Both the position numbers and the translations under genes were made by a program. A stretch of DNA of 64,000 nucleotides from Blastocatellia bacterium (GTDB taxonomy: Bacteria > Acidobacteriota > Blastocatellia > Pyrinomonadales > Pyrinomonadaceae): the NCBI GenBank assembly GCA_016789265.1, contig JAEUQK010000018.1:1-64000 (forward strand), given 5' to 3'. The notes under the pieces are model-generated. The model had not been told where the DNA came from. It was given only the letters and a program-made list of their open reading frames with translations, and made no database searches. Positions 35,940-40,941 of this stretch are shown here, piece by piece; position 1 is the stretch's first letter; the number at the start of each line of letters is the position of its first letter.

Positions 35940-37733
35940 CTACTTCGCCCACTCATCCGCGATGTGCACGTCCGCTTTGATCGCGACCCGCTTGATAAAT
36001 TCCTGTCCGGCGGCGGTCATCGCATTTTCTAACTCAACGGCAACAGCCTCGGCGTCGGCTGCGTCGCATTCGACCATGATCTCGTCGTGCACGATGTTTA
36101 CGAGCTTTCCTGAACTCCCATGTAGCGAATCGTGCAGCAAGCGTAGGGCACGTTTTAGGATGTCGGCCGACGTGCCTTGTATCGGCATGTTTACACCGTA
36201 GCGGCGAGCAGCAGCGACAGCCGCACGATCCGTTTCGTCGAAACGCAGCCGAAGCATACGACCTGACGCCGTCCGAGCAACGCGGTTGTCCACAACCGAG
36301 CGGCCTGATTCGCGAAGGTAGGCGTCCAGATGGCGATAGGTGCCGAAGTATTTTCGCATCGTATTCTCAGCGTCCGATTGCGAAAGCCCTGTCATCATTC
36401 CAAATCTCGAAGCCCCAACACCGTATACGATCCCGAAATTCAATCGCTTGGCAAACGAGCGTTGTTCGGCTGTTACATTCTGCAGGTCGACATTGAAGAC
36501 CTGCGATGCTGTCATCGCATGAAAATCCTGTCCGCTTTCAAACGCCTTAATGAAATTCTCATCCGCGGAAAAATCCGCTAGAATTCTCAGCTCGATCTGG
36601 GAATAGTCGGCGATCACTAGCTTTTTGCCGTCGGGAGCTCGAAAGCACCGGCGATAGGCTTCTTCGTGCGGTATCTGCTGAAGGTTCGGATTTGAACACG
36701 AGAATCTTCCCGTAGGGGCACCGATCTGTCGAAAGTCCGCATGGATGCGTCCCGTCATAGGCTCGATGAATTCGAGGATGTTCTCGCCAAAACTCGTCAA
36801 AGATTTTTGCGCCGCGCGATATTCTAAGAGTTTGCCAACAACGGGCCATTTTTCTGCAAGCGGCTGCAATTCCCACGCACGTGTCGAAGCAGGAACCGGC
36901 ACGCCGAGATTCAGCAACGCATCGGTAACCTGTTGCTGCGAATCCAGATTGATCTCAGCTCGCCCAAAAAGTGAAGCCTGGGCGACACCGGCCGACAGCA
37001 GATCCTGAAGCTCATTTGCGGTTTTTGCCTGTGTGATACGCACTTTATCCAACTGTTCACGCCAGCGTGTTGCATCAAGATAGATCCCGTTCAGTTCCAT
37101 CTCGGCGATCGGCATCAGGCAATCGAATTCAAGCTGCGCGACTCGTGTGAGCCCGTCGTTAGCTAAACGATCGGCCATCTGTTCGTGCAGCGGCAACATC
37201 ACTTGCGCGTCAAGGGCGGCATACTGTAGTTGCGATTGCGAAAGTTCTGACGCATTCCAATCGCTGATCTGTTCAGATTTGTCTAGTTCAGTGTCTGTGA
37301 AGAATTTCGCTACGTCCGCCAATGAATGTCGGCGGTCTCCATCGCCTGCAGATATCAGCACGCTCGCAAGATAGGTGTCAAAGACTCCATTCGTCTCACA
37401 ACCGAGATGATGCCGGATCCATTTCAGATCAAACTTGGCATTGTGTGCCACTTTCATTACTGAAGGATCTTCAAGCAATCCCCGTAGCGGCTTCAGATCT
37501 GCGGCGGTCCGCGAGTCTCCAAAGGAATATAGGTCGAAAACGAAAGTCGTTCGTCCGGTCGAAAGCTGTACAAGGCGAAGCCGGCCCTTGTAAGGGTCCA
37601 GCTCAGTGGTCTCGGTATCAAAACCAAGACGCTTTTCTCGCCTGAGTTCCTCAACTGCGCGAGACACACCGGCAGCGTCGGTCACGTACTGGAAATAAAT
37701 ATTCAAACTTCTCTCAGGTGTCATTTCGGTCAT
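35940..37733 (-). CDS. DNA polymerase I-type enzyme: 3'-5' exonuclease plus polymerase, no 5' nuclease
   Basis: The product has 597 residues. A DEDD-type exonuclease domain (about 15-200) keeps FDTETTELDP, HNAKFDLKWI and YAALDAQVM, so proofreading looks active. The family A polymerase domain carries motif A DYSQIELR at about 374, motif B RSFAKRLNFGIVYG and motif C VHDEIMVECD at about 548. MPIQGTSADILKRA is also typical. The 5' flap nuclease of full PolA (about 300 residues) is absent; a separate protein may supply it. It may act in repair or gap filling, beside or in place of a longer PolA elsewhere. Confidence 0.9.
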   Translation of the reverse strand: MTEMTPERSLNIYFQYVTDAAGVSRAVEELRREKRLGFDTETTELDPYKGRLRLVQLSTGRTTFVFDLYSFGDSRTAADLKPLRGLLEDPSVMKVAHNAKFDLKWIRHHLGCETNGVFDTYLASVLISAGDGDRRHSLADVAKFFTDTELDKSEQISDWNASELSQSQLQYAALDAQVMLPLHEQMADRLANDGLTRVAQLEFDCLMPIAEMELNGIYLDATRWREQLDKVRITQAKTANELQDLLSAGVAQASLFGRAEINLDSQQQVTDALLNLGVPVPASTRAWELQPLAEKWPVVGKLLEYRAAQKSLTSFGENILEFIEPMTGRIHADFRQIGAPTGRFSCSNPNLQQIPHEEAYRRCFRAPDGKKLVIADYSQIELRILADFSADENFIKAFESGQDFHAMTASQVFNVDLQNVTAEQRSFAKRLNFGIVYGVGASRFGMMTGLSQSDAENTMRKYFGTYRHLDAYLRESGRSVVDNRVARTASGRMLRLRFDETDRAAVAAARRYGVNMPIQGTSADILKRALRLLHDSLHGSSGKLVNIVHDEIMVECDAADAEAVAVELENAMTAAGQEFIKRVAIKADVHIADEWAK

Positions 37734-37933: not shown

Positions 37934-38322
37934 ATGCCGGAGTTTGCCGGATGACGCGCTAATACTAATGTGCGAGATCGGCAGTTGAGATAAGAGGATT
38001 CATCGGCCGGATATCGGTCCTGAAAACAGATTTTTGAAGGTCGAGCACGATCGTATTCGATATGTGCTCCCTCAGCAAAAGCCCGCAAGTGTGGGCATTT
38101 TGCGGGAAAAGATCCCTGCGTGATTCAAACCAACTATCGGTGTATCGGCAACAGCCGGAAGCTACCGAAAAGAACGATCGAAGTTTACGCAAAATCCGTC
38201 TCGGGCGGCTTGAATTAAAGTCTTCGCGCGACGTCTGTCCTCGTTCCATCTCAGTTCAGCCGACAATCCAACCTCCGGCATCCTCAAATCTAAGCATTTG
38301 AAGGACTTAAGTCTTAATTTGT
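37934..38322 (+). promoter_or_regulatory. Long structured 5' leader of the RNase E/G gene
   Basis: This region has no convincing gene. It contains a stem GAGCAC (38043-38048)/GTGCTC (38064-38069). Next come two mutually exclusive stems that share one strand: GCCCGCA (38081-38087) can pair with TGTGGGC (38090-38096), or CCCGCAA (38082-38088) with TTGCGGG (38100-38106). In E. coli, rne has a leader of similar length through which RNase E represses its own mRNA. A comparable role is plausible here but not shown. I do not recognise a known riboswitch. Confidence 0.45.
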
Positions 38323-40941
38323 ATGTCAAAGGAAATGATCATCAGCGTCAATGGACGCGAAAAGAAGATCGCCATTCTCGATAACGGCAAGGTGACCGAA
38401 TTTTATATCGAGCGGGGCGAGGAGAATAGCGGCATTGCCGGGAACATATACAAGGGGCGCGTTCAGCGTGTTTTGCCGGGAATGCAATCAGCATTTGTTT
38501 CCATAGGCCTGGAGCGAGACGCGTTCCTGTACGTTTCTGATTTCTTCGATGAGGAAGAAGAGATCGAACGCATCGTGATGGAAAAGGGAAAGAAGACCTC
38601 TCCAGAGGAAGCAAAACGCGAGGCAAACGATCGCATCGAGCGCGCTCGGATCGAACGGGAAAAAGCTATGGAATCGGCGCAGGAGATTGCCGAACCTATT
38701 GCCGAAAGCGGTATCGCGATCTCGGTTGATGAGAAAGAGGTCGAGGAAACCGACCGGCGAGGGCGATCCCGCCGCGGGCGCGAACGTAAGCCGCGTTTCG
38801 AGGATGAAGTTTCCACCGCTTCCGAGCCCGAAGCAGAAGAGTTGAATTTTGCTGAACCACCGGTCATCGAGTTTGATGATTCCGGATTCGAGCGGATCAG
38901 CGACGACGAAGATACCGGAGAGCTCTTTAAAGACGCGTTTCGGCAGGAAGCGATCATCGACAAGGTCCGAGCCGTCGAATTTGACATGGAAGAATCGTCG
39001 ATCGCCGAGGTTGGGTCGCTGTTGAGTTCCGTGTCCGCGACCGACGGCGGATTTGAGCGTATCGCTGACGAAGATGAAGTTCCCGTAAAAGAGACTAAGA
39101 AGAAATCCTCACGTTCGCGATCCAAGAAGGCAGACGGAGAAGAGACGTCTGAGAAGAAGTCACGTCCAAAAAAGGCTGCTTCCTCCAAGCCCAAGAAATC
39201 TTCCTCCCGATCCAAGAAGGCAGCCGAAGCTGAAACTCCTGAAGGAGAACCTGAGGAACAGTTGCCAGATTCAGAAGCAAGCGTTCGAGAGAAGGACGAG
39301 ACTTCGGCGATGTCAGTTCGCCGGGGTGGACGCGGACGTCGCCGAGGGGGTAAGGGGCGGAAAAAACAAGCGGGCGATACGACGGATGAGACGACCGAAC
39401 TCGAAGTTCAAGACGAATCTTCCGAAAATGGAAACGGTGACATTGAAATCTCTGATCCCGAAATTATTTTTGACGCGGATCCGGAGCCCGAACCAGAGGT
39501 CGCTGAGGTTGTTTTAGACGAAGTTGCCGAGACTCCCGAACCATCTAACCCGGGAAATCGGGAACCGCGGGAGCGCGACAATCGCGGGCGTGATAAAAGG
39601 CGCGATGGCCGCGGACGCGACCGAGACGGTCAGCAGCGAGAGGGCAAGAAGTTTGACCGGAACGATCGGCACAGCCGTGATGACCGCGGCGAACGCGGAG
39701 ACAGAGGCGAACGTAGGGGGCAACCGACAATCTCCGATCTGCTGCGAGAAGGCCAGGAGATCCTGGTCCAGATCGCGAAAGAACCGATCGCGAAGAAGGG
39801 TGCGAGGATCACTTCGCACATTGCGTTGCCGGGCCGATTTCTCGTTTACATGCCAACGATCGAACATGTCGGCGTGTCCAGGAAGATCGAATCATCCAGC
39901 GAGCGTGGTCGTCTCCGGACACTTATCCAGCGGATAAGACAAGAAGAAGACGTGCCCTCAGGCGGCTTTATAGTTCGAACCGCAGGGATCGGGATATCTG
40001 AGGAAGACCTCCGACAGGACGCAAGGTATCTCGTCCGTACCTGGGTGGACATCAAGAAGTCATCGGAAAAGGCAAAATCTCCTGCGATGGTACATCAGGA
40101 CCTTGATCTGGTTCAGCGTCTGCTGCGTGATCAGCTTTCTGATGATTTTGCAGCGATCCGCGTTGATAGCGAGGAGGAATACCTTCGCACTGTCGAGTTC
40201 ATCAATCGAATACAGCCAAAGCTTGTAAACCGCGTGAAGTTCTACACGCGCGACGAGCCCATTTTGGAAGCGTATAACGTTCAGGAGGAGATCGACAAAG
40301 CCCTCAAACCGCGTGTATGGCTGAAATCCGGTGGTTATCTCGTCATAAATCAGACCGAAGCCTTGGTCGCGATAGACGTCAACACAGGAAAGTTCGTCGG
40401 TAAGGGCAACGCACGACTCGAGGACACTATAGTCAAGACCAATTTGGAGGCCGTAGACGAGATCGCCCGGCAGATCAGGCTGAGAGATCTCGGCGGCATC
40501 ATTGTACTTGACCTGATCGACATGGAGGATCGCCGAAATCGGCACAAGGTCTCACAAGCATTACAGGAAGCACTGGCGAGCGATAAATCGCCGACAAAGG
40601 TACTATCGTTCAACGATTTCGGGCTGATAATCATGACCCGCAAGCGGGTGAAGCAGTCGCTTGAAAGAACCATGTGTGCGCCTTGTGAATATTGCGAAGG
40701 TGCCGGATGGGTAAAATCCCCCTCCACTGTTTGCTATGAAGTGCTTGCCGAGGCACGAAGGCTTTCAAAGCATCAGGAAGACGTTCGCCAGACAACACTC
40801 CGTGTTCATCCTGATGTTGCGAAAGCATTGCGCAGCACGGAAAGAAGCGTTTTGGAAGAGATCGAAGAATATCTGGGTTTCGTCGATGTGACCGCAGACC
40901 CGCACATCCACCAGGCACAGTTCGATTTTGCGTTTGTTTGA
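38323..40941 (+). CDS. rng: Ribonuclease E/G family endoribonuclease with large insertion in the S1 domain
   Basis: The product has 872 residues, about 380 more than RNase G. It begins with the start of an S1 domain (NIYKGRVQRVLPGMQSAFVS). After FLYVSDFFDEEEE the domain is interrupted by about 380 low-complexity residues: acidic stretches, SKKSRSK-like basic runs and RGD/RGR-rich repeats. It resumes at about 467 with TISDLLREGQEILVQIAKEP. The catalytic core is intact: AIDVNTG at about 684, VLDLIDMED at about 728 and the zinc-link CAPCEYC at about 785. It cleaves single-stranded RNA in mRNA decay and rRNA processing; the insert probably binds RNA or partners. Confidence 0.92.
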   Translation: MSKEMIISVNGREKKIAILDNGKVTEFYIERGEENSGIAGNIYKGRVQRVLPGMQSAFVSIGLERDAFLYVSDFFDEEEEIERIVMEKGKKTSPEEAKREANDRIERARIEREKAMESAQEIAEPIAESGIAISVDEKEVEETDRRGRSRRGRERKPRFEDEVSTASEPEAEELNFAEPPVIEFDDSGFERISDDEDTGELFKDAFRQEAIIDKVRAVEFDMEESSIAEVGSLLSSVSATDGGFERIADEDEVPVKETKKKSSRSRSKKADGEETSEKKSRPKKAASSKPKKSSSRSKKAAEAETPEGEPEEQLPDSEASVREKDETSAMSVRRGGRGRRRGGKGRKKQAGDTTDETTELEVQDESSENGNGDIEISDPEIIFDADPEPEPEVAEVVLDEVAETPEPSNPGNREPRERDNRGRDKRRDGRGRDRDGQQREGKKFDRNDRHSRDDRGERGDRGERRGQPTISDLLREGQEILVQIAKEPIAKKGARITSHIALPGRFLVYMPTIEHVGVSRKIESSSERGRLRTLIQRIRQEEDVPSGGFIVRTAGIGISEEDLRQDARYLVRTWVDIKKSSEKAKSPAMVHQDLDLVQRLLRDQLSDDFAAIRVDSEEEYLRTVEFINRIQPKLVNRVKFYTRDEPILEAYNVQEEIDKALKPRVWLKSGGYLVINQTEALVAIDVNTGKFVGKGNARLEDTIVKTNLEAVDEIARQIRLRDLGGIIVLDLIDMEDRRNRHKVSQALQEALASDKSPTKVLSFNDFGLIIMTRKRVKQSLERTMCAPCEYCEGAGWVKSPSTVCYEVLAEARRLSKHQEDVRQTTLRVHPDVAKALRSTERSVLEEIEEYLGFVDVTADPHIHQAQFDFAFV

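Follow-up and report, generated by a model that had tools for sequence, protein, structure and literature searches.

To our knowledge, almost all described RNA degradosomes are built on RNase E enzymes that carry a C-terminal tail. Short motifs mediate partner docking and RNA binding in Pseudomonas RNase E (PMC11964227), GWW has been described as a PNPase-binding motif (PMC3376730), and alternating charge patches drive BR-bodies (PMC12691583). Charged, disordered inserts of about 50-150 aa within the S1 domain were reported by Voss et al. (2014) in alphaproteobacteria and plants, and RhlB binding was mapped to a Caulobacter RNase E fragment (residues 1-274) that comprises the S1 domain and 5'-sensor with the insert included (PMC4245959). 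A 2011 survey listed the RNase E/G of Fibrobacteres/Acidobacteria as a protein of 511 aa with no complex (PMC3071783). Searches of a literature library with few subscription journals turned up no description of how acidobacterial RNase E is laid out. Here we analysed an RNase E/G gene in a 64,000-nucleotide stretch of DNA (the window) from a Blastocatellia bacterium of the Pyrinomonadaceae.

The gene (38323..40941, + strand) is an open reading frame of 872 aa encoding a Rne/Rng family ribonuclease, and a search of the 3.88-Mb genome found it to be the sole RNase E/G. The product belongs to the family by the NCBI Rne/Rng model TIGR00757 (473 bits against a cut-off of 326). The RNase G equivalog model was its top scorer, yet the score of 485.9 bits falls below the NCBI cut-off of 594. 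The 5'-sensor and DNase I-like catalytic core (residues 502-776; 39826..40650) are covered by PF10150 at 332 bits, against a cut-off of 25.5, and the small-domain model PF20833 spans residues 787-868. Catalytic residues D685, N687 and D730 (E. coli D303/N305/D346), 5'-sensor residues R552 and T553 (R169/T170) and the Zn-link CEYC with C788 and C791 (C404/C407; 40684..40695) are all retained. Only 3 residues separate the end of the core from the end of the protein, so that, as the first-pass annotation of this DNA had noted, nothing of substance follows the zinc-link and core; the long disordered C-terminal region that follows the small domain in E. coli is absent. The divergent neighbour (35943-37733, − strand) encodes a 597-aa DNA polymerase A with a 3'-5' exonuclease domain and no match to a 5'-3' exonuclease domain.

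By alignment to E. coli RNase E, the S1 domain is divided into a first part of residues 40-74 (NIYKGRVQRVLPGMQSAFV...FLYVSDF; 38440..38544) and a second part of residues 465-498 (QPTISDLLREGQEILVQIAKEPIAKKG...; 39715..39816). The alignment stops at window residue 74 (E. coli chain residue 73) and restarts at 465 (chain residue 85), leaving 390 aa (residues 75-464; 38545..39714) in between; this division derives from the alignment, and in the AlphaFold model the two S1 halves were not confidently brought together (pTM 0.38). When measured between fixed profile anchors, the same loop has 15 residues in E. coli RNase E and 18 in RNase G. The net insert thus amounts to about 375-380 aa. The reading frame and its coordinates were confirmed as given at first pass, and the earlier estimates of about 380 residues here and about 20 in RNase G are both borne out. 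The insert-bearing loop is situated between F68 and K492, and F58, F68 and K492 of the window protein correspond to F57, F67 and K112 of E. coli, which contact RNA in the E. coli structures. Because the catalytic, Zn-link, 5'-sensor and S1 residues are all kept, the window protein should be an active, 5'-sensing enzyme, as predicted from its sequence.

How does this arrangement compare with the described ones? The insert of Caulobacter crescentus RNase E (PMC4245959; PDB 4OXP) occupies the same S1 loop and is likewise charged, predicted to be disordered and partly helical. The window insert therefore shares loop, charge and predicted disorder with the described class of S1 inserts, but its 390 aa exceed the length of about 50-150 aa. 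Arabidopsis chloroplast RNase E, compared here by its description, also carries an insert within S1 that is needed for full activity, reported at no more than about 150 aa against 390 here (PMC4245959). Alphaproteobacterial inserts of 50-150 aa are additional to a C-terminal scaffold, whereas the acidobacterial ones extend over 129-788 aa and come without a tail. For instance, RNase E of Paracoccus versutus combines a loop of 139 aa, measured from the same anchors, with a 288-aa tail whose final residues, RRGWWSLG, resemble the GWW PNPase-binding motif; records for this comparison with other phyla came from a plasmid collection, and Sinorhizobium, having no N-terminal profile match, was left out. 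The acidobacterial and alphaproteobacterial inserts share no recognisable sequence similarity, and the former have no GWW and other motif sets. The C-terminal scaffolds of E. coli and Pseudomonas RNase E resemble the window insert in being disordered, in their R-rich RNA-binding-like blocks, in their short conserved motifs and in composition, but they are C-terminal rather than internal and their motif sequences differ; no membrane helix was seen here. E. coli RNase G, the nearest curated model by score, likewise lacks a C-terminal tail.

The insert has a charged fraction of 0.48 and a net charge per residue of −0.07. Trp, Tyr and Cys are all missing from it, and with them any counterpart of the alphaproteobacterial GWW PNPase motif. 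Net charge per 15 residues swings from −6 to +7 along the alternating acidic, Lys/Ser and RG/RD blocks that had been read from the sequence at first pass. Charge segregation relative to shuffled sequences was 1.58x for the insert, 1.77x for acidobacterial RNase E C-tails and 1.49x for E. coli residues 530-1061, in contrast to 0.92x for the catalytic core. In composition and in its BR-body-type alternation of charge blocks, the insert thus resembles these C-terminal segments and not the core. AlphaFold gave pLDDT values below 50 nearly throughout, two helices excepted. Following acidic opening residues, a helix is predicted at residues 94-122 (38602..38688; pLDDT ~80), within a first conserved island of residues 75-130, with dN/dS of 0-0.06 in computable pairs. 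Then come a conserved motif GFERISDD (residues 188-195; 38884..38907), a conserved helical island GELFKDAFRQEAIIDKVRAVEF (residues 199-220; 38917..38982) with a low-confidence helix predicted at 203-217 (pLDDT ~58), and a second motif copy GFERIADE (residues 243-250; 39049..39072). They are followed by a Lys/Ser/Arg-rich basic block (residues 256-299; 39088..39219), a conserved RGG box SVRRGGRGRRRGGKGRKK (residues 331-348; 39313..39366), an acidic block (residues 351-404; 39373..39534) and an RG/RD/RE-rich end (residues 412-464; 39556..39714). A compact inserted globular domain was considered and rejected: a Pfam search found no domain inside the insert, pLDDT is low, and identity within the genus is 49%. 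The same low pLDDT and identity exclude a short conserved globular insert in relatives, which the first-pass annotation had named as an outcome that would speak against its reading.

The insert is under purifying selection. Within the genus it is 49% identical, compared with 88% for the core, and close pairs give dN/dS values of 0.09-0.15 in the insert against about 0.01-0.02 in the core. The conserved islands within the genus are the start helix, two copies of GFERI(S/A)D(D/E), GELFKDAxRQEAIxDxVRAVEFDM and SVRRGGRGRRRGG, followed by the RG/RD-rich end; dN/dS is 0-0.1 in most of them and 0.11-0.2 in the GSLL and second GFERI stretch. Among 51 non-redundant Blastocatellia inserts, [FL][EQ]R[VI]xD[DE] occurs in 49, with 90 copies against 0.06 in shuffles and at least two copies in 36 inserts, and RRG[GR]R occurs in 44, with 68 copies against 0.3. 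The first motif is absent from the 73 inserts of other insert-bearing lineages, of which 57 contain LPGES[LI][SA][KR] (76 copies, none in shuffles). These patterns were picked out visually from the very sequences in which they were then counted; the counts thus describe conservation and are no blind test. Repeats of LPGES[LI][SA][KR] were seen in Terriglobia inserts (L243, L262, L136 and L203), and this motif is a candidate for a second class-specific docking motif. When the genome was scanned with a DNA pattern for F-E-R-[VI]-x-D-[DE]-[DE] that had been set beforehand, both of its 2 matches were inside the window insert; the idea that the motif is common to other proteins of this genome was accordingly rejected. 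The start helix is kept in the genus and its nearest relatives and not across Blastocatellia or Terriglobia, whereas the multi-copy motifs and RG blocks are more widely conserved.

Sixty genomes from the genus and class were searched, and 58 contain an RNase E/G match, with reading frames of 748-1206 aa except for contig-end cases and a broken frame in one genome (G056). Across the phylum, 51 of 94 proteins have 120 aa or more in the S1 segment (range 129-788) and end 1-4 residues past the core; 15 of 94 have a C-terminal tail of 149-350 aa and an S1 loop of 11-21 residues; and none of the 94 combines insert and tail. By named records, the insert type occurs in Blastocatellia, including Pyrinomonadaceae, and in Terriglobia (Terriglobus, Edaphobacter, Granulicella, Korobacter and Bryobacteraceae), with RefSeq isolates of the first three genera of Terriglobia among them. 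The comparison with relatives thus extends the first observation across the genus, the class and much of the phylum. In a tree built on the core with the insert omitted, every insert protein lies on one side of a single branch (support 99), and the C-tailed RNase E forms a separate paralog (support 100, two short members included). Within the sampled phylum, the insert has a single origin. Just outside the insert clade lie two proteins with S1 segments of 91 aa (L105) and 55 aa (L109), possibly steps in the growth of the arm. In this tree of acidobacterial proteins the insert clade is nested among RNase G-like enzymes, and its neighbours there have loops of 14-91 aa, which makes an origin independent of the alphaproteobacterial and plant inserts likely.

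Gene content follows the same division. Each family was given the architecture of its retrieved representatives; on this basis, a lone RNase E/G gene is present in 91 of 92 genomes from insert families, whereas 72 of 73 from C-tail families carry at least two. Where examined, the additional gene encodes a short RNase G-like enzyme. Genomes with an insert-bearing RNase E/G are without the C-tailed paralog. The C-tailed acidobacterial RNase E, which occurs in other classes of the phylum, belongs to the same family and carries the same kind of charged disordered segment, but it is a separate paralog with a gap of 11-21 aa in S1 and nearly always stands beside a second, short gene. Some acidobacterial lineages have a single short RNase E/G with neither insert nor tail; the link is therefore a strong association and not a rule, and members of the phylum can do without a scaffold. 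The C-tails of four proteins (L106, L113, L137 and L169) end in WW-R/WDRLFG-like peptides (HWWRRTFGG, GGWWQRLTGG, IWDRLFGE), resembling the alphaproteobacterial GWW motif. At two further loci (L118 and L122) the frame stays open for several hundred codons ahead of the RNase E/G start codon, which may be either an N-terminal extension or plain open sequence. A sister of L122 has no such upstream frame, and an N-terminal extension as a third scaffold position was set aside.

We consider it probable that the protein is an active 5'-sensing RNase E/G with a degradosome-type scaffold inside its S1 domain that binds RNA and partners. The catalytic core would fold normally, and the disordered arm would exit the S1 loop beside the RNA-contacting face. 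Its Arg/Gly- and Lys-rich blocks could bind RNA, while the repeated [FL][EQ]R[VI]xD[DE] motifs and the FKDAxxQEAI helix may dock one or more RNA-decay partners. Leading candidates would be PNPase, which has one gene in the genome (G000:C10), and an RhlE-like DEAD-box helicase, the clearest being a 401-aa protein that ends in GGRRRR (G000:C9). By making the tetramer multivalent, the alternating charge blocks might give rise to BR-body-like condensates. This helicase is without the long C-terminal extension that Caulobacter RhlB uses to bind RNase E; the missing extension, the lack of Trp and GWW in the insert, and the acidobacterial lineages that have neither insert nor tail were counted against the scaffold reading. 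The first-pass annotation had proposed an RNA-binding or condensate-forming scaffold. Sequence, evolution and structure prediction support an internal arm that is disordered, built of charge blocks, furnished with motifs and RNA-binding-like in character; such an arm may bind RNA and form condensates.

An unlikely alternative in our estimate, though the best placed, is that the arm, mainly through its start helix, folds over the cleft between S1 and 5'-sensor as a local gate or autoinhibitor that controls RNA entry without recruiting partners. The acidic start of the window insert and its predicted helix are consistent with such a role, as are the Caulobacter crystal structure, in which an insert helix lies in the predicted RNA site, and the lower activity of the Arabidopsis enzyme upon insert deletion (PMC4245959). 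However, that helix is confined to the genus and its nearest relatives while the motifs and RG blocks are wider, and an arm of 250-790 residues exceeds what gating needs. We regard it as quite unlikely that the arm acts through charge blocks and RGG boxes as a condensate or RNA-binding element only, with no specific protein clients. Charge segregation of 1.5-1.8x over shuffled sequences in inserts and C-tails alike agrees with this idea, and charge patches drive alphaproteobacterial BR-bodies, in which a foreign disordered region can substitute (PMC12691583). But conservation of [FL][EQ]R[VI]xD[DE] and the helix in Blastocatellia, and of LPGES[LI][SA][KR] in Terriglobia, goes far beyond the needs of charge patterning. 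Near-neutral low-complexity expansion tolerated in a surface loop would account for the low identity within the genus, the variable length and a slippage-prone composition; the tests of selection and of motif conservation refute it for the most part, given the low dN/dS, the conserved islands and retention throughout one large clade, and we hold it to be highly improbable. An assembly error, the other outcome named at first pass as adverse, or fusion of a neighbouring gene was rejected as next to impossible: nothing was found in support, and the same layout, with conserved flanks and frame, recurs in dozens of independent assemblies across genus, class and phylum, RefSeq isolates included.

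Upstream of the gene, a conserved structured element in the 5' leader (38024..38137, + strand; 190-300 nt before the RNase E/G start codon) is partly covarying and a candidate cis-regulatory RNA. It consists of a bulged hairpin GGNY-GAGC(A/G)C...G(Y)GCUCCC, a second hairpin of variable sequence and then RAUUCCUGCGUG. In the first helix, 89% of cells pair against 85% in shuffles, and changes on both sides number 9 against 3.4. An Rfam search returned no match for the element. A model built from 24 relatives (R1) has a single match in the genome, at this leader. The element is present in relatives L060-L079, L083, L187, L188, L200 and L233; outside the sampled genus the model matches L083, L188 and L233, all three members of its training set, and it has no match in any more distant class. 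The element is a candidate autoregulatory leader; a natural guess, by analogy with the rne leader of E. coli, would be a role in feedback sensing.

That the locus represents a different way to build a degradosome, as first suggested, holds in part. Participation of an S1 insert in a degradosome is an idea already known, S1 inserts with an RhlB-binding fragment being precedented (PMC4245959). The novelty lies in an insert of up to five times the length of those described, standing in for the C-terminal scaffold, and in the mutual exclusion of insert and C-tailed RNase E within one phylum. The acidobacterial form also differs from the described ones in its motif content and in its emergence within an RNase G-type clade. 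Tentatively, the degradosome of two major acidobacterial classes and of related lineages may be built on a scaffold that grew once within the phylum from an RNase G-type S1 loop, the C-tailed RNase E having been lost or never present. Partners would be recruited through motifs not known elsewhere ([FL][EQ]R[VI]xD[DE] and LPGES[LI][SA][KR]) and held at the RNA-entry face. The short motifs are directly usable as bait (GFERISDDEDTGELFKDAFRQEAIIDKVRAVEFDM and LPGESLSKYR). One soil phylum in which a scaffold-like segment is internal, C-terminal or missing, depending on the lineage, offers a clean comparison of a relocated scaffold.
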